DNA of 64,000 bases from Chondrosia reniformis (taxonomy: Eukaryota > Porifera > Demospongiae > Chondrillida > Chondrillidae): positions 2,418,001 through 2,482,000 of the forward strand of contig OX359191.1 in the NCBI GenBank assembly GCA_947172415.1, in the 5' to 3' direction. The notes under the pieces were generated by a model. It was not told where the DNA came from. It searched no databases and worked only from the letters and a program-made list of their open reading frames with translations. Made by a program: the position numbers and the translations under genes. Position 1 is the stretch's first letter, and each line of letters opens with the position of its first letter. This document shows positions 15,221 through 52,830 of this stretch, one piece after another.

Positions 15221-18200
15221 ATGGATTCTGTTATGAATGAAACACTTATGTCTCCCAACACCACATTCTCTCCTTCAAACTACCCAGATAAGAAGTCCAT
15301 CATTGCTGCTTATAAACGGGCCGTAAGTTGACATATGCATCACATTTGAAGAAGACGGTACACGCCCTCCTTTGCGCAATCTCTCCTTATTTTTATGGAA
15401 GCTCTTCTCATCATTTGATCATGACTTTGGTTAATTTTCCACGATTGTAATTTTCAGATCTTACATCAAACTAGTTTGTTACATTACCGTTGAGACGTAA
15501 AGTACGTAAAGTTTTAACTACTACAATACGTAAATGGTTGCAGTAGATGATAAGAAATGCGAACATAAACAGAAACTGTAAAATAAAGGAACCTTTCAAT
15601 CTGCAGGCAATCAAAAAAATCTTTTAAAATGGAACCAACTAAATCGATGTAGAAGCATTTGAATTCCGGCGAGGAGATGCTGGATTAATTCCAGGGGTTC
15701 TCCTATTTGGAAGATAAATACAAGTTGACTTTGAGCTTGAACTAGTTTAGCATACAAATAACATTGCACACTAAATCGTTCTTTTAATCCAAATCTTTCT
15801 ATCTATCTATTAAGTTAAGTGTAAATACTAAGCTCATAAAAAAAGTTTCATATTGTTGCAAAATTCTATAACCTTTGTTAGGTAAGCACGCACTTAGATA
15901 ACATGAAAGACAGGGCAACTTTGCAAACACTGTTGAAGGAGTTTCAAAGGTATTTCTTCCTTTATCCTTTCAATAATTGCATTAATGTAGTTATCCCGTC
16001 TAGTTCCACAAGGAAATATACCATAAATATCTGGATTTCTTTACAGATCTCTAATCGTAGAAGAACTGGTTGAAAGGCTGAAACCTTTGTTAAACCATCC
16101 AAAGCGGAGGACCCTATTTCATTATATTAGGTTTGACTGTAACAAAATGAGCATTTCGAGGTATATGTATGGCTTTCCCTTGATGTTTTCCACAGGCCTC
16201 TAATTCCAGCCAGGCTGAGACATGAGTACAATTCTCTTCTGCCAAATATTCCCAATTTTGACCAGCAGATTTACCACATAAGAAGAAAAGGTTCCGAAAG
16301 CCTTGGTATATCAATCAGAGGAGGTTAGTGTACTTACATAATAGTATTCTTATGTATAAATCATTTTATATTTTCTATGTGTGTATAAACTTCATATTTA
16401 TGATGCCAATATTATTGAAGTATTTATACTTTTGAAGGTTTTGAATTTGGCTGTGGGTCGTTTGTTTCTGCTGTACATTCAGCTTCTAGAGCTGCACAGG
16501 CTGGCATTAAAGTTAGTTTATTTGTTTACCTTCGAATAATTGTCGAGGATGTACAATTTCTATGCAAGTGTTAAACTTTCCATCTCTTTGAGCATCTAAA
16601 GAGGCATGCAATTTTGATTGGATGTTTTTGACATTCAACCTAGAGGGTCTTCTTCAGTGATTGACCCAATGGACATTGGACAAGGGAGTCCAAAACTGCA
16701 TCTTTAGATGTTTAAAGATGAACCCTTTCAAACCATAATTAGAAGAAACCCTTATTGTATCGTATCATGTGCACTTTTCTTTCTAGTAGAAGTACTATAT
16801 TCAGTACATACCTAAATTTAAAGAACAGTTTGGAGTTGGTACTGCATTTGATATCTATGTATTATAAATTGTTGAGTATATATACTAAATTTCCACAGCA
16901 GAATGTAAGTCTAAGTATAATAATATATAGACTTATCGAAAGCGGAAAGCGAAACTATTTCCTCATGAATGTCACTTCCACAGTTACTCTCTTTAAGCAA
17001 GAAACAATATTCATATGTTTAATAACATTCATATGTGATACAGAAAAATAAACTCCTAACGTCATGGTGTGATATAAAGTCTATAGTCTTTGTTAGCAGT
17101 TAGTGCCTATGCATACCAGGTGGTATCCAATGGTAACCTTTTCTTGCTTCATTTGCCAGTTCTCTCTATCTCCTGTGCAAGCAATGCGTATGGTATTTAT
17201 CAATGTTGCTAGTGGCTTGCACTGATAGAGTTTGTTTCCATGTCGAAATACTTGTCTTCCACTCTTAGCATTGTAGATATATGCAGGAATTCTGTGGTCA
17301 TCGTAACTGCAAGTATAAGTCCATTTGCAAAAAGCCTTACTAGATTGTAAGGACTCGTTGGTGGGGATATTCAAATCTGTAGGGCACCTTCTAGAGGTAG
17401 CAGTATTGTCTTCAGTGTCAAAGGTAGCTATGTTGTAAATTTCCTCCCAAGCATCAATTGGAGGTTTGTACCAGAAATCAACAACCTTTCTAAGTGCCTG
17501 ATTGTGCACACGTGGTAGCTGATGGGTGCAATTGTAGAATATTCCAACAGGAGCAGCTTCACCACATACATGAAGTTGATATCCTTTGCAGCCGAAAATC
17601 AATATCATGACTGCAATCAGACTCCTGTACCTAACAAACAGTTTTCGTCTGTTCATGCTCCTAGCTTTCCCCGATCTGACTGACAAACGTTCAGGTGGAT
17701 TGTCCGGGTTCTCGAGTTAAGAGAGCTTCCCGCGGTCACTACCCACACAGTACACTGTCGAGTGATCTGCAGAGGCGATTGCTCCTTTTGTAGACAACTG
17801 GCTGCAAATGTTAACAAGCTCATGGATCTCGTGCTACTTCGAAAATCCCTAAAAACAGGTCAATGTTAATCACGCGTCTTGATTGCGTAAGACAAGTCAA
17901 AATGTCTTAAGTTTATCGATACCGGACGTTTGGTAATTGATAAACCATGTAGCGCGTATTCAAAGTTTAATCTTTCGCACACAAAATCAACTGTTACCCA
18001 TTAGGGCGAATAAGTGCAAGCATGTAGTTTGCACAATATGGGGCACCAACAGAAAATGATAGATGCTTGTATTTGTATTGTTCGCTTTCGCATTAGCGCA
18101 GGAGGCATTGTAGCTGTAATTACTCACTTCCCAACCTTTAAGTGAAACACTTATGGATATATAGACTGACTAGTGTTTAGGCGCTCCTCACGTGTGCAGA

Positions 18201-21200
18201 TGAATTATGCATCTTTGCGAAAAGAAATGTGGAATTAATTGACTTAATATTTGATAAGCTGAACATATTACACCAACTAATATTTATTAGATTGCTACAA
18301 TTGTATATAACAAAACCTAGCATTTATACTTGCTTTTTAACTCGTACAAGTTGGTATCCAATTACTACTTGTTCTTGTGTAACTACCCATTTCTCTTCAT
18401 TATTTGAACATTTCAAACGAAGGGTGTTCACTAGTGTCTTAATTGGTTTGCATTGGAATTGCCTCGGACCTTGATTGACCTGGTGCATCCTATTCTCAAG
18501 TTGAGCATCAATAATAGCATGGTAGATATAAGTAGGAATTCTATGGTTGTCATGAGTACAGCGATACTGCCAGCTACAGAATGCATTCTCTGAACTATAT
18601 GTCTCAGGGGTAAAAGTTAGTGATGGACACTCTGTTTGGTTTCCTGGCTGTTCAGCTTGAGAGGATTCCATTAACCTGATTTTATCCCAGATTTCATTTT
18701 GGGTTTCATATTTGAATTCAACTTCTTTAGTAAGTGTCTTGCTTCTTCTGCCGTCCATATTGTGGGTACAGTTGTAAGAGGGGTTGAGTGGATCAGTACT
18801 TCCGCATGTTCTTACTAGTCTAAGAGCTGCACATTCCCCTCTGAAAACTATAGCAATAAGGAATATTCCTTGGAAAATCAAACAAAGTCTTGCCATTTCT
18901 ATTTTTGTCCTAGCCAACAAGTATTTTCAAAGTTTTGATTCTGTCAAGAACTGAACTTCTACAATTATTAATATTTTCTTTTGCCTCCGTGTACACTTCT
19001 AGTTGTCAAAATGCGGCCGATCACTGCTTTTATAGTAGAGCACATAAATATTACTTATGTGTGTATTATGGATTTATTCCAAAGCATGACTTCATTTGAG
19101 ACCTCACAGTATCCTTTCAGAATATATATTTCCTTAGTTACTATATATGTTAGGTACGAGTATACAGATATTCTGAAGTCTGACATCATTGATTGTGGTG
19201 ATATTACAGGTTATGCATTATCCAAATTGAAATGTAGTTGTGATTATAATTTTTATTACATAAGCAACAGGTTGAGGTTGACATCTTGATATTCAGTTTC
19301 AAGTCACAAAACAACACTTAACTTCTATCTAGAGTTTTTCTTAATTTTAAAGTGATTTAGTGGTTGCTTTAAGCAAATGTAGAATAGGAGTGTGACATTC
19401 AAAGCATATCTAGCAAAGCATATCATTTTGAACCTTTTAAATTTTATTTCCAAATATTACTGATACTAACTAAAAATGCTGATATATGCTGCTGATTGTT
19501 AAAATTACACATCTGTGTGCTTAGGCTAGGATGTTAAAAATAATATTGTTCCTCTTCTTCTCACTTTAGCCACCTGCACAGCAATTATTAATAATCACGA
19601 TGAATACATTTATTCAATTTTGTAATTGTTAAAACAAAATTTTTTGATATATCAATTTAATTTAAAAAGAAATGCAAGGATAACTGACCATTTTAGGAAA
19701 TGATATTATTAGAGGAATCTGTGGCATTGCCAATATTTGCTTAGATATATAAGCCAATTGATTTATACCTAAGCAAACAGCCTTATAGCAGTCATCATCA
19801 TTTGATTCTGGATTTATCCCACCCACTCACGCTTCTGAGGAGCGCAATGAGCTAATGGGTAAAACCAAAGTTCACTTAACAGATGCCAGAACCCCTAAGC
19901 CACTCAAAAAGATGGTCGAGACATAGACAGCTGTTTTTCGTCCTTTTATGACTCATCAGTATGGTATACAATGGAAATCTGAGTAGCTACTCTGCTAATA
20001 ATTACTCCCAAAAGCTAAAATGGTTGTGGTTTCCTTATTAGCAGTTATGGGGTAAAGCCAAAAGTGTAGCTTACCATTCAATATTGAAGCTTAAAATCCC
20101 TACCACGTAATAGAATAAGGATTTCTTCTAACTGCTTCGAACTTATCTTTGGAAAGGGTCATATTTCGACTTCGGGAGCATCTAGAGACGCAGTTTTCTC
20201 TGATTCTTCTTTCTGCCGGATGTTTCAACCCTGGGGGTCTTCTTCAGTCACAAAGATTTCTACCACTTTTTGTTTATACATACATATGTGACTGATGGCT
20301 TATCAAAGTTCAAGTTTGAGTATCTCCTTTAAAATGGCTACCTAAAAATATTTAGATTTCTTTGAAATAATTACTGTATATAGTTTTCTTAACATACGTA
20401 GTACCTAAGTCTTTTTCTATTTTGATATGTAATGGATAGGTTGGAGACGAAATTCTTCGTATTAATGGACTTACTCTGTTGGAAGCTACAACTGTTGAAG
20501 TTGCTAGTTTGTTGAAACTGAACCGATCACTCACTCTACAATGTCGGAGTAAGCATAAATGGGTCTAGTATATTAAATGGTAAACAGGCTTTATATTGTT
20601 ACACCTTTTTTCTTGCAGGCATTGGCATGCTACCAGAGTTAAAGTGAGTAAATAGTACTTTGTTTACCAACTGTTAAGTTCATGATTTTGTGTATTATTT
20701 AAATAAAGTTATTAAATGGGTTACACTTTGCTTTACTGTGTATCTCACATGGATACAAAGCTAACTATTAAAGACGTATTTGTCTAGTAACATACTATAA
20801 AAACTAAAAATAGTATAATCTATATCAACAGCTGTGTCATTTCCTTTGTATTTAATGAATGAGGTACATAGTTACATGCTTTTCATATAGAATTCATGTT
20901 ACTGAAAGTTGTAAATATCCTATTACATCTCGTAATCACCATGAATATTTTTAAGGATATTTTGGAAAGGTTTAACCTTTTTGGTAATATTGTCCCCCTA
21001 AGTATTATACAAGAGAATAGCAATTTCACATAGCATAAATTGTAAACAACAGAATTCATTTCTATGTACTTACATTAATATGTATTCCAGTATAATGTCA
21101 GTTAGTTAATATAAACCAGACAGATGATATTTTTTACTTTAACTGCTGTTTTAGTTTGGAAGCTGGATGTATCACTTGGAAAGATGTATCAGATCCCAAA

Positions 21201-33314: not shown

Positions 33315-36300
33315 ATGACCAAAAAAATGGAGTCAAGTGGGAAGAAATTCATTCAACTGGCTGTCGACCTTTGCAAAAATGTGTCCAGATCATACTGTAT
33401 ATGGGTAGTACAGAACCCAGAAAAGACAACCACATTGGAAACTTTTGTAAAGGTCCTTGGTTATATAATTCCAGGTAATTTGTCACGTATTAGCTAGATC
33501 ATCAAGAAAGTATTTTATTACAGCGTAGTCTTCATAGGGCTCGTTAGCAATATCCTATGCACTGCAGCTATTTAAGATTCTTTTTTATTTGTAGTTCGCT
33601 TTGGTGCACAGCAAGGATTCACAGAACTAATATATGCTATGACCAATTTCTTATCCTTTTTCAATGATCGCATCATGGCAAATACATTTAACGTGAAGAG
33701 TAGGGAAGAATCGGTACATATATTTTCACTAAACACTAGTCAAATTTCTGTTCTAATAATTTCCTCCTCCGCATTATTTCTTATGTGGGTAACTTGTTCT
33801 AAGTGTTCAGTATTATTATTATACTAAGCTGCTATTCTTCTTCTGTTCGCAGCATCCAAAGATAGTGAGAAGACTGACCTTCATTTTGTCAATGATTGAT
33901 ATTCTGGAGGTGCCTCTGGAACTGCTAGTTGAATCAAAAATTAGTGAACCTGCCAAATGGTTCACTGTGTTGGCAGTCTTACTTTTTAAGTTAGAAATGG
34001 TCACGTGTCTTGGTCAATTCTAGATCTCATAATACCTTTGCTGAAGAAGGTCTTCAAATAAATTTTGTTTTTCTAAAGCATGTTATTTCATTCTCTTTTA
34101 GAACTATTGTGAAGTTTTGGCTTGTGTATAAAATGGATTATGGTTTGGTTACTTGCCCCACAATTCCACCCCTGGATAGGAAGAACCTGGTTCTCAAGGG
34201 AAAGGAGAGAGAAGCACCCGCTTCTACGCAAGTATGGAGAGGCCCTAGGACTGGCCACTTTATTAGATCAATACATGGAGGTACAAACTGGCAAGCTTAC
34301 TAATGTAATCATTCTAATGCTCTATTGCAATTCATAAACAGTATCCATGTACTGAATTAGATCCTGTAGTACCGTACCATGACCTGAGACTGGGAAATGA
34401 GGCACTATCTGAGGGCCTATCTGATGGATTACTGGGTTCCACTAAGTTGGAGAAGGTGGAGTTAATTGGAGAAGGACTGTTCATTGCCCGTCCACTTGTT
34501 CACAGTAAGAAATGTCAATAGTGTCTATTTCATACAATAGTGTAAAAGATTATTATCAAAGGTGATGCCTTACTTTTATGCTACAAAAGTATATAATGCT
34601 TTTGACAGTGGTTTTAATTTGTTTATACGTAATGCTGAATTTTGACACAATGTCTCCTAAATATTGTTGTTTCTTATGGGGAAGTGTGAATGGGTGTGTT
34701 CTTTTTGTAGTTTTAACAATGTTTGTAACTGGACAAAATTCTTGGAAATCATGGCTTATTGCTCTTGGAATGGATCTCACAAGGTACCGTGTGTAATAGT
34801 CTGATGAATCCTTGATTTCCTATTGTGAGCCTGTGTGTATACCATTTTATGCGGTACTACATTTAGTGTAGTGTTTGGAGGTATTCCGGTAATGTTGTAT
34901 ATACGTACATGAAAATGGAGATCGCGATATTCGATTTTGCTGTAGTTATATCATTGAACCAGTTAAGCAGTAAAATCAAAGCAAATGAGAGTCCTAAGTG
35001 CATGCAAGGACTCTATGTTACACTTACTACTCATTATTTCTTCACTCGTCATGTAACCACACTAGATAAGTGCTAACGACTTCAGCCATCTTGTTATAAT
35101 CAGGCTTGCATGTGGTTTCGGTATTCGGTATTATTCTGTGCATTTGCACAGGTGCACCAACCACGTGTCAGAAAGATGACTGAAGTTGGTAGTGCTAGTG
35201 TAGATGTAGTGTAGATACACAACTCGTGAAGAATCCTCTGATCTTCTTCAGCGATTACTATACACTTTTGGAATCAGCTCATAAGCCAAAATAATTTCAT
35301 GCACCGCTTACTTGGCTGATTCTTATGTTCCTAGCTAACAATGTGCCTTAATTTTATGGCTTGTATGATTACATTTTTAATCTGTTTTTGTTGAGCTCTG
35401 TATGTACGTATATAATAGGTTTTTGTAATGTATTACATATACATAACATATTTGCATACTTTATGACAACTTTGCTAGTTTCAATATTATCAAAAATGCA
35501 ATAATAGTGATATTTCACACATTTGATTATCGTGACTGTACTTTTTATAACCACCCAACTCTAATTTAGTGCTTACATAATGGGAAATTCCAGTCATTTA
35601 AAGAAATCACAGAATAAGGAAGTAATGAGAAGAAAGTGCATTTTACTGCTGTACCTTCTACGGAGTCCCTTTTATGACAAAATAACAAAGTAAGACTTTC
35701 AAGTGTAGATATCTACATGTGTTAATGCAAGTCAAAATCTAAGATTTATAGCTTGCCACTTTGTTGCTAGCTTATTTTGTTCCTCTTACCTCTAAAGCAT
35801 ACCGAACGGCAGTTGTTTTATTAATTATTTTATTGCAGTCCTATTTAACAGCAATTGATGCATCTATAACGTTTAGGCCATAGTAATAAGTTTTAAATAA
35901 CGATATGGAAACCCCACTAGCCTACAAAATATCACTGGACGATGTCGAAGTCACTTAATTCAAACGTTTCGGCCCAATCCTGGGCCCTCATCAGTGAAAG
36001 ATAATGTTACAAAAACGGAAGGTGTTAATATACACATGAATGTCAGAAATTAGTGACAGGGGGGTGAGGAGAGGAAGTGAACGATAGCAACAATAATAAT
36101 AAAATAGGTGACAGAGGTGAGGAGAGGAAGTGAATGATAATAATAGTAATAATAAAATAGGTGACAGGGGGTGAGGAGAGGAAGTGAATGATAATGACAA
36201 TAATAATAAAATAGCAATGACTGTTAAAACATGCACATAATGATGTAGTCAGACTGCCGCTGGTCTCCGATTGTGGATTAAGGGGTTGTACTCAGCTGGC

Positions 36301-39300
36301 AAGGGGCCCCTGTCCCGGTTCATTGTCTGGTGATCCATACGGATGTGCCAGGCCTCCAGTACACATCTTTGGCGGTAGTGCGGATGGGAGTCAACCACTT
36401 CTGCTTCTTCCCAATTAATCTCATGCATACGGTCAACTGAATGCTCTGCTATCGCTGACTGGGCTATGTTCCCTGATGTCAATGCCCTCTTGTACTCCTT
36501 CAAGCGGTGTTCCATAGTCCTGCCCGTTTGGCCAATATACACTCTGGGACACGAACCACACGGGATGCGATAAACCACGCCAGCTCGTTGCTGTAGGGGC
36601 GTGTGGTCCTTCAGCCTCACTAACGTCTCTCTAAGTGTGCAGTGAGGCCGGAAGAAAGTGCGAACCCCGAGTGGGACCAGTATCCTTTGGATGGTCTCAG
36701 ATAGGTGACGGATGTACGGTAGAGTTACAGTTTGCATGCAATTCCCTGGAGATCAGAGTTGCTTCATTTGGCTCAAGGTGTTTGTTTTCTTTGTGCCTAA
36801 AGCATACCGTTTAAGACGGCAAACCCAATATTAAGTGTAATCCATTCTGATACTTGTAAAGTTTTTTATATAAGTTAAATCATTAAGTTTTCTTTATAAT
36901 TGTGGGTGGATGATTCCACACCCTGGAGCTTTTTGATTAATGTTCATATCCTAATGATGTACGTACTTTTCTGGACTACAGAATGTGTGAACTTTTGTGG
37001 ATTATGAGGGCTGTCTTCTCTCATGATTCTGCCTAGATCGCATAGTTTCCAAATGTCGTATATCGCCAGGGACCGTCCCGGAAAATAGGCTGTTTTCCGT
37101 GTCATGAATGAAAGACTACTTTGTCCTGGTGTTTAACTCCCTTAGAAAAATGCCTAGGATATTAGCCTCCCTTATCATTTCAATGGATTGTGGTCGTCTA
37201 TCAGGCTTATCAGCTCACAGTTCATTGTCCATGGCTTTTTGTACCTTTCCTTTTGCTGCTGTAGCTTGCGTTCTTTTTGCTCAAGCTCAGCCGCCATAAT
37301 GGATTTTTCCGTGAATGCCTGCTCCTGATGGCTTGCTGCTGTCTTTCCTTCTCCCTTTTCTGATTCACTGTGCGTTGAGTCCATGTCTGTGGCTGTAACT
37401 AATACTTTCCTTGGAGATCAACCATTCCTTTTTATTCCAAGGTTGTTTCCCTTAATCCTGAAGCTTCCCAATCACCATTTGGTGTCAGGAGGCAGTGGTC
37501 ACTAGCCTAACGTTCTGGATCTTAACTGTCTGCTAGTTGCTTTTCTAGCGTTTAATGGGAATGCCCTGTTTCTGCCATCATTCTCTCTCAATAGGACCTC
37601 CAAATGTAACGATTTTGCATCTCAAGTAACTCGGGTCTAATAGATCACAACTCTTGGTCAATTTAACTCAATTGAGGAACACTAATTAATACAACTCAGC
37701 AACATAAGTTGGATATGTGAAATGTATTGTCTACAGAATAAAAACAGGAATGGCAGTGCCTACAACAGTTATTGGCACATCTGGAAAAAGCGAAACAAGA
37801 TGGATAGTAGAAGTAGGGATGATGTGCCCAAACATAGAAGTGATGTGTTTCAGTATGCCACTTCTGCATGGTTAGCCTTACCATATGAACACTGTCTTGT
37901 TTTGTTACTTATTTCTGATGTGCCAATCAATGTTGTAGGGGGCACTGCCATCCCTACTTCTAACTTCATTTTTTGAATACTTGTATTGCCCTTTTTTCTG
38001 GTTAATAGTACTTGTTAACTTTTGTTTGAAAGTTTTCTTGGCGAAGAGTAGGAATAAAATAAATATTGGTCAACTAAGTTTTCTATCATTCTTTAACCTT
38101 TTAACAACCGCTTTACATTTTTTCACATACCTGTTAACGACCGTAAGCTACATTTGTGGTACGAATTTGTTTTTACTTTGTATAAGTGCTATTTCAAGCT
38201 CTCAATCCCTTTATTTCGATTTGTAGCAGTTTGTGCATACCTTCTCTTAAACTTTCTCCCGAAAAAGGTAATTAAAATAAGCGTTTACCACTCATTTTAC
38301 TTAATATACGTACGTATACACGTATTTATATGTCGGGGGCAAACAAGAGCGGTTGTATACATGCATTCTATGAAAAATTTTAATTTAAACTTATACATAG
38401 AGAATGGCAAGAAATGTCTATCAATTAATGAAATAATGAAGGCTGTGGATGATGAATAGGTGCTCAGTGAAGATGAGTTGGAGAGTGACCAAGAAAATGT
38501 CGACTGTCTTGGTCTCCAATGTTGATCACCTGCAGGAAATACAAGATGAAGATGATAGTTTACATGAAACATTTACATCAGTAGCACTTCTTAAGTCATC
38601 TGCTCTCCATTCTGTAGATCTACAGAAAATACAAGAGGAAGATGATAATAACACATTGTCACTAAATACAACTTCCAACTCACTTCTCCAGCCTTCTAGG
38701 GAAATAATACTGCCATCCACCTTACCCCCTGATGAATCCTTAACCACATCAGTTGACACTTCTATGAATGATTCACAAACACCTCCTTTGTCTCCTATCT
38801 CGAACTCTACACCTTCCATTCCTAATACTGCTTCAGCATTGCTTCCACCACCAGGCCCTATTCTGCCAGATGATGCATTCTTGGAAACCCCTTATGATTT
38901 CCCTGAATTTCACGCGAACGTTCTCAGATCACCCATGCGGATCTTGGAACGATCCTGGGAATCGTACTTTGTCCCGTCCACCCAATTTCTGGTGTGCGCA
39001 GGGGCTAGAAGGTCTACGTCATAGCTCGCGTTCGCTATAGCAGCTAAGCTAAAGCAGCTATCCCCTTAACCTTTTTGACTCAGTCAGTGCATGGTTACCA
39101 GGTAAGTGCCACATCTCAGACTGTCACTCTGAAAAAGTTTCTGCTCTGCCTTAGGGTGGAACTTCTAGGCGAGCGGGGTGGTACGTTCGAACCCCCCAAA
39201 CCCACCTGTGTACGGGCCTGTTAGGGGAGCAGCTGTACCACCAATTTTATTTAACCCAAGCCACTTATCAAAGTGTTTAATTAGCTATAGGCCCAAGTCC

Positions 39301-52188: not shown

Positions 52189-52830
52189 CTAAAACCGAGC
52201 AGTCCACATCTTCATAATACTCTTCAGTATTGACAAATGCTGGCATCCCTTGTCCAGAACTAGAACTAACTTATCGTCTTCACACAGATTGTCAAAATCA
52301 TTGGCTATATGCCTCATTGCCTGTAAGAGAGGCTGGTATTCGGTGCACCATGCATTACACTCAAGCAGCCAATGGGTAACATCCTCCACCTTCTCTGCCT
52401 GACACTCCCGACATGCATATGTCCTCTCTCTGAGTCCCTGATATACATCAGATTGAGAACCACCATTGAAATCATCCAGTTTAGCTACAACCTGCATAAC
52501 CTCTTGGTAATATATACTTTCCTCCTCTGTGGGCATTGTTTGACAGTTCCCACAAATACACCTAAATATCATCAAGCTCTGATATCACAAATAGATATAG
52601 CTTTTGCATACCAGTCAGTTGTATTGGCCTTGAAACTGGCACATCATCATCCCTCAGGGTATAAGGTTGGGATAGCTATTATCTGACTCGATTAGATTTC
52701 CTATAGAGGATCAAACTGGTATGGCTGCATCCCTAGCGTTTCATTACCATTTTGAATCTTGAGTATCGCTAGACACGCTGTAATCATCTTCTGAGCTACT
52801 CGAATAATCATTTTTGCTCGAAGAACGGCT
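52189..52830 (-). pseudogene. P2X7R-C-terminal-like transposon protein
   Basis: 52189-52575 encodes FRCICGNCQTMPTEEESIYY, the CxCGxCxxMPTxxE motif of P2X7-type C-terminal cytoplasmic domains that is common in invertebrate transposon proteins. Upstream, in broken frame, are a Ser/Asp-rich start (SSSSEDDYSVSSDTQ) and IQPYQFDP, typical of the same proteins. The C-terminal half (YACRECQAEKVEDVTHWLLE) looks instead like the Cys motif at the end of LINE reverse transcriptases, suggesting fusion with another fragment. Confidence 0.5.

Follow-up and report, generated by a model that had tools for sequence, protein, structure and literature searches.

Two IL-17-derived genes lacking canonical ring cysteines in an intron of the demosponge Chondrosia reniformis

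A single intron of a harmonin-like PDZ gene of the demosponge Chondrosia reniformis holds two antisense single-exon genes, here called A and B, whose products recall the IL-17 cytokines although they lack the AxC and VGCxC cysteines of human IL-17s. The locus lies in a 64,000-nucleotide stretch of contig 3 (C3), referred to as the window, and it raises the question of whether these proteins are IL-17s, derivatives of IL-17s or something else. An earlier note, made from the letters of the window, had proposed two recently duplicated proteins that, if the organism was a sponge, would be very deep-branching IL-17 relatives with a rearranged disulfide set, or else a new secreted family. We consider it probable, from the comparisons below, that A and B are diverged secreted members of a demosponge IL-17 family that have lost their ring disulfides, have kept the CPW-CKP pair and signal through a SEFIR pathway.

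Two old paralogs and the family around them

A and B are intact, intronless open reading frames on the minus strand with 34% identity across 185 residues (E=3e-38), which bears out their description as paralogs. Their lengths are 187 (A) and 190 (B) amino acids rather than the ~198 first given, and the cysteine numbers reported at that time exceed those counted from the ATG by 10 residues in A and 8 in B. The motifs listed in the earlier note (CP, WxYxC, DxHRIP, QCKP, C-x13-C and W...VxIGY, with the ends IGYHLVC in A and IGYQLV in B) are all present, and the N-terminus claimed as a signal peptide is hydrophobic in both proteins, the best Kyte-Doolittle 12-mer reaching 2.76 in A and 2.77 in B against at most 1.48 and 0.83 elsewhere. 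When 100 windows of 64 kb were simulated with the dinucleotide transitions of the original, only 1 contained an ATG-initiated frame of at least 187 amino acids (the longest frame averaged 119), and this, together with the 93.2- and 83.5-bit matches to a profile of relatives described below, rules out chance open reading frames.

Differences between A and B amount to 0.65 at third codon positions, 0.45 at first and 0.37 at second positions, as in coding sequence under constraint. Synonymous divergence (dS) is about 2.8 and nonsynonymous divergence (dN) 0.63, compared with a dS of 0.22 and a dN of 0.09 for a younger pair in the same family (C14:918k and C14:924k). Because synonymous sites are saturated, the duplication must be old, and this saturation and the 34% identity rule out the recent local duplication that had been suggested. 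The same numbers bear on the possibility, which we think improbable, that A and B are copies caught in the intron and now silent or in decay. Cysteine loss could be decay, and a different assembly carries a shortened allele of one sibling (P0008, below), but 187 and 190 codons have stayed open despite the saturation, the changes are concentrated at third positions, an identical B protein is recorded for two contigs, and AATAAA and ATTAAA hexamers lie 35 and 69 nt past the respective stops of B and A.

Pfam names IL17 (PF06083, curated cut-off 24 bits) first for both proteins. B scores 24.0 bits (E=5.3e-5), exactly at the cut-off, with 24.4 bits in the genome search, and A scores 18.4 bits (E=0.0029), which is below the cut-off and weak alone; taken by themselves these scores are marginal. 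A significant profile match, on which the earlier proposal had been staked, is thus found for B, and A is carried by its relatives. Reversed or shuffled versions of the two proteins gave no IL17 match (0 of 6). PDB searches with B alone or with a two-sequence profile of A and B returned nothing, and A alone returned four matches with E values of 0.99 or worse, none of them IL-17.

The membership of A and B is settled by the rest of the genome (117,379,552 bases searched in 15 contigs; the assembly, odChoReni1.1, is given as 117.37 Mb with 14 chromosomes and a mitochondrion in an extract of PMC12181767), which contains at least 15 such open reading frames, with a best IL17 score of 49.7 bits and the GCxC end intact in 7 of the 15. 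Used as query, B matched 14 places at E up to 10. The Pfam IL17 model matched 13 places, 11 of them over the cut-off, and none in 14 control genomes. A fifteenth frame (C14:331713-332342, minus strand, hereafter C14:332k) was found with the database protein P0007 as query, and additional scans of the genome contigs for relatives found none. These counts, which are lower bounds, comprise A and B on C3, one member each on C5, C11 and C13, and ten on C14. All 15 are single open frames, and a hydrophobic start is evident in the 14 measured, most weakly in C14:131k (1.68 versus 1.34 elsewhere). Two members, C14:344k in hmmscan and C14:332k in the genome search with the IL17 model, gave no IL17 match of their own and were placed in the family by similarity to siblings.

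Matches in the protein database comprised B itself, sibling alleles known from other assemblies, and P0007. Encoded on a 626-kb contig, P0007 is IL-17-like, has the full set of cysteines and scores 49.1 bits to IL17. Its best match in this genome has an E value of 8e-28 at 38% identity, identity at C13 is as high as 46% when the core is compared, and since a near-identical copy is absent here, P0007 probably belongs to another species, perhaps another sponge. P0008, 106 amino acids long, is 98.5% identical to the C14:131k member over its first 67 residues and then diverges, and is probably a broken allele of that member in another assembly. A frame with a TGF-beta domain (67.8 bits) was also seen on C14 near 912.5-913.2 kb, roughly 1 kb from C14:914k, one of the IL-17-like frames, so that two cystine-knot cytokine types stand side by side there.

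A profile built from 14 relatives, with A and B excluded, matched B at 93.2 bits and A at 83.5 bits, whereas the best of 10,000 shuffles reached 14.6 bits, and a profile-profile comparison of the A/B pair with 5 canonical siblings gave 99.0%. A 14-member profile that included A and B matched 26 sequences in the PDB, of which 25 were IL-17F, IL-17A or IL-25 (best E=3.7e-7) and the remaining one was a RIFIN (E=0.23). The human proteins IL-17F, IL-17A and IL-25 (PDB 3jvf, 1jpy, 7z2m, 7uwj) are the best solved relatives both of the family, in profile searches, and of a sibling, whose predicted fold was compared: the model of the sibling allele P0002 matches IL-17, with identities of about 14-21% when the folds are aligned. 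The order of W-x-Y, DxxRxP, AxC and VGCxC is common to human IL-17s and the sponge family, and the WxY...DxxRxP part is present in A and B themselves (WQYRCTHDNHRIP and WTYTCSYDDHRIP).

The predicted model of B itself is poor (predicted local distance difference test score, pLDDT, 39.8; best IL-17 match E 0.44), so its disulfides cannot be judged from it. Its weak matches include NGF and BDNF/NT3, as if A and B came from another cystine-knot family of neurotrophin or TGF-beta type and resembled IL-17 by convergence. We give such an origin very little credence: Pfam returned no TGF-beta or neurotrophin cystine-knot match for either protein at E up to 10, their profile links run to siblings that score as IL-17, and WxYxC, DxxRxP, CKP and W...VxxG follow one another as in IL-17F. 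Judged from these sequence comparisons, A and B have a common origin with at least 13 further single-exon open reading frames of the genome, that family is IL-17, and the IL-17 relationship first proposed for the pair is supported.

Cysteine pairs kept and lost

In crystal structures of IL-17F, the AQC and VGC cysteines and a second pair are bonded as ring disulfides. The sponge AKC and GC cysteines align with the first of these pairs; for the second, IL-17F has a cysteine five residues after AQC, and the sponge family uses one in CQC instead. IL-17F has serines (SPW, NSVP) at two positions where the sponge family has cysteines, namely those of CPW and CKP. We compared these positions in 16 sequences, the 15 from this genome and P0007. 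The CPW and CKP cysteines occur in all 16, A and B included, and are predicted to be bonded. Passages of PMC4517768 state that this third, invertebrate pair was replaced by serines in chordates, and A and B retain it, unlike chordate IL-17s. Invertebrate IL-17s with at least six cysteines, from molluscs, annelids and sea urchin, likewise have an extra CPW and C-x-P pair in the portions of PMC4517768, PMC8353272 and PMC5457136 that describe them, and they share tandem clusters, few introns and large repertoires with the sponge family.

The ring positions are more variable. Besides the 7 of 15 family members with an intact GCxC end, the C11 member has GCVP and five have GYxC; both VGCxC cysteines are absent from A and B, as is the early ring cysteine of AxC that partners VGC (AKS in A, AII in B). 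In C14:332k, AxC is kept, GC has become GY, and an extra cysteine stands six residues past AxC. With p-values that ignore kinship, and a tree in which 3 of 13 inner branches are well supported, the AKC and GC cysteines are jointly present in 9 sequences, jointly absent in 6 and discordant in one (C14:332k; Fisher p=0.0009); the first CQC and last GCxC cysteines are both present in 13 and both missing in 2 (B and C11), with A discordant (p=0.025); and a further pair in columns 125 and 153 is present in 12, missing in 3 and discordant in 1 (p=0.007). The late cysteine of A is displaced two residues out of register. Because the tree places the GY members together to one side, the AKC-GC loss may have been one event, and the CQC-xC pair appears to have been lost separately in C11 and in A/B.

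A and B are the only members of the 15 in which every one of the four canonical ring cysteines is missing, so that their disulfide set looks reduced more than rearranged. The depth and rearrangement ascribed to them in the earlier note therefore need recasting: what reaches deep is the sponge family as a whole, and the pair are those of its members with the fewest canonical ring cysteines. Because the ring cysteines were looked for in A and B and are missing, we class the two as derived from IL-17 and as belonging to an IL-17 family, but not as canonical IL-17s. The two C-terminal cysteines are missing from sea-urchin subfamilies 3 and 9 as well (excerpts from PMC5457136), so C-terminal loss alone is not new. 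Unlike these invertebrate IL-17s, A and B also lack the partner cysteines, and such a combined loss, with both cysteines gone from each ring pair, is new as far as our literature searches show.

Whether the loss also marks a change of role is a separate matter. A and B could have kept the fold and secretion of IL-17 and now be decoys, antagonists or non-signalling extracellular proteins. Their standing alone among the 15 (even with the one displaced cysteine of A), their grouping, which is well supported (100/99) and has a long stem (length 2.5), and the N-terminal cysteines C31 and C43, which are common to the two and their own, are in keeping with such a shift, which we nonetheless find rather unlikely, as the sea-urchin subfamilies just mentioned are IL-17s with the same C-terminal loss. 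The more likely outcome of losing the ring bonds is changed stability or receptor specificity rather than loss of function, because both frames are intact and vary like coding sequence.

The host intron and the window

A and B lie antisense within one host intron because their frames are on the minus strand and the PDZ domain split around that intron is on the plus strand; intron signals and split domain confirm the placement proposed earlier. Human harmonin (3k1r, E=7.9e-19) is the best match to the joined peptides of the host exons. Opposite strand and complete frames rule out A and B as parts of the PDZ gene, and contamination is ruled out by their position within an intron of a spliced gene on a chromosome-scale contig. 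Coordinates are collected in Table 1. Elsewhere in the window, two orphan frames at 36249-36737 and 52189-52572, both on the minus strand, had no Pfam match at E 0.01, and local G+C content nearby reaches 0.40-0.43; they are reminiscent of retroelement tails.

Table 1. Features of the locus (positions in the window) and the adaptor candidate on C4
Feature	Position	Strand	Basis or remark
Gene A, IL-17-like single-exon open reading frame, 187 amino acids, ends IGYHLVCIGTNC	17093-17656	-	ATG-to-stop frame; Pfam IL17 18.4 bits; relatives' profile 83.5 bits
IL17 domain match of A, residues 110-177	17126-17329	-	Pfam match, residues converted to coordinates
Possible poly-A signal of A, ATTAAA	17018-17023	-	Hexamer match only; 69 nt past stop
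Gene B, IL-17-like single-exon open reading frame, 190 amino acids, ends IGYQLVRVKKQV	18324-18896	-	ATG-to-stop frame; Pfam IL17 24.0 bits; relatives' profile 93.2 bits
IL17 domain match of B, residues 106-180	18357-18581	-	Pfam match, residues converted to coordinates
Hydrophobic N-terminus of B, likely signal peptide, about residues 1-22	18831-18896	-	Kyte-Doolittle 2.77
Possible poly-A signal of B, AATAAA	18283-18288	-	Hexamer match only; 35 nt past stop
Host exon, PDZ start, ends ...GISIRG	16196-16323	+	Boundaries from splice signals
Host exon, PDZ continued, GFEFGCGSFVSAVHSASRAAQAGIK	16438-16511	+	PDZ exon flanking intron; harmonin-like
Host intron holding A and B, 3,928 bp	16512-20439	+	Donor GT at 16512, acceptor AG at 20439; PDZ domain split around it
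Host exon, PDZ end, VGDEILRINGLTL...	20440-20553	+	3' boundary approximate
Death and SEFIR frames, candidate CIKS-like adaptor	C4:8085090-8086324	+	Domain matches in two separate frames

A candidate adaptor and the age of IL-17

The earlier note had also pointed to SEFIR-bearing IL-17 receptor genes as something to look for in the same genome. One Death-plus-SEFIR adaptor candidate was found, and no receptor ectodomain: the IL-17 receptor models PF16578, PF16556 and PF15037 had no match in the genome and were equally silent in the controls, so that absence of a receptor is not demonstrated. The sole SEFIR match of the genome search is a frame at 35.1 bits that is also over the TIR_2 cut-off (30.8), and a Death-domain frame (28.4 bits) precedes it on that strand at a distance of some 170 bp. 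Against the PDB the SEFIR frame gave weak matches only (PARN, E 0.043; an IL-17RB/RA chain, E 0.62), and a search upstream of it for a transmembrane segment found hydrophobic stretches, none tied to a receptor. A placozoan protein with SEFIR and Death domains resembles the CIKS/CIKSL adaptors of IL-17 signalling and MyD88 according to passages of PMC6321704.

As diverged members of the IL-17 family, A and B would be secreted by way of their N-terminal signal peptides and would fold as cystine-knot-like dimers in which the invariant CPW-CKP pair remains and the AKC-GC and CQC-xC ring disulfides are gone, and they would act as extracellular signals through the SEFIR pathway. We are evenly divided over a broader reading, in which the large single-exon family and the Death-SEFIR adaptor of a demosponge would mean that IL-17 signalling predates the sponge split, and in which members have shed ring disulfides pairwise, with A and B as the end point, ringless IL-17-fold ligands held by the threading disulfide. 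Such shedding would be the reverse of vertebrate IL-17, where the threading disulfide was lost and the ring kept.

IL-17 has been described as missing from sponges. Excerpts of Saco 2021 (PMC8353272) report no IL-17 in Amphimedon, the sole sponge examined, and give Cnidaria as the oldest phylum to have it; a review of June 2026 (PMC13337447) gives IL-17 as not present in Porifera in the passage concerned, and part of a 2015 survey that included Amphimedon suggests an origin in Nematoda (PMC4517768). A demosponge IL17-domain match does appear in PMC8353272, the Amphimedon Pfam entry A0A1X7VXB1/359-442, which Saco et al. were unable to confirm in the Amphimedon genome; its domain at residues 359-442 makes it a much longer protein than A or B. 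The KEGG category 'IL-17 signaling' has been reported in sponges by three papers. Among the titles and abstract openings listed from the open-licence literature, preprints excluded, we found no description of a sponge IL-17 gene, although a report elsewhere is possible, and as far as these searches show the sponge family is new.

The presence of at least 15 IL-17-like genes in a chromosome-level sponge genome contradicts the stated absence of IL-17 from Porifera, and an origin of the family at the base of animals is, on the sequences at hand, a likelier reading than transfer. The correlated cysteine losses form a natural experiment in how far a cystine knot can be dismantled, and the sponge family offers a testable system for the role of the first IL-17s, perhaps at the interface between sponge and microbes.

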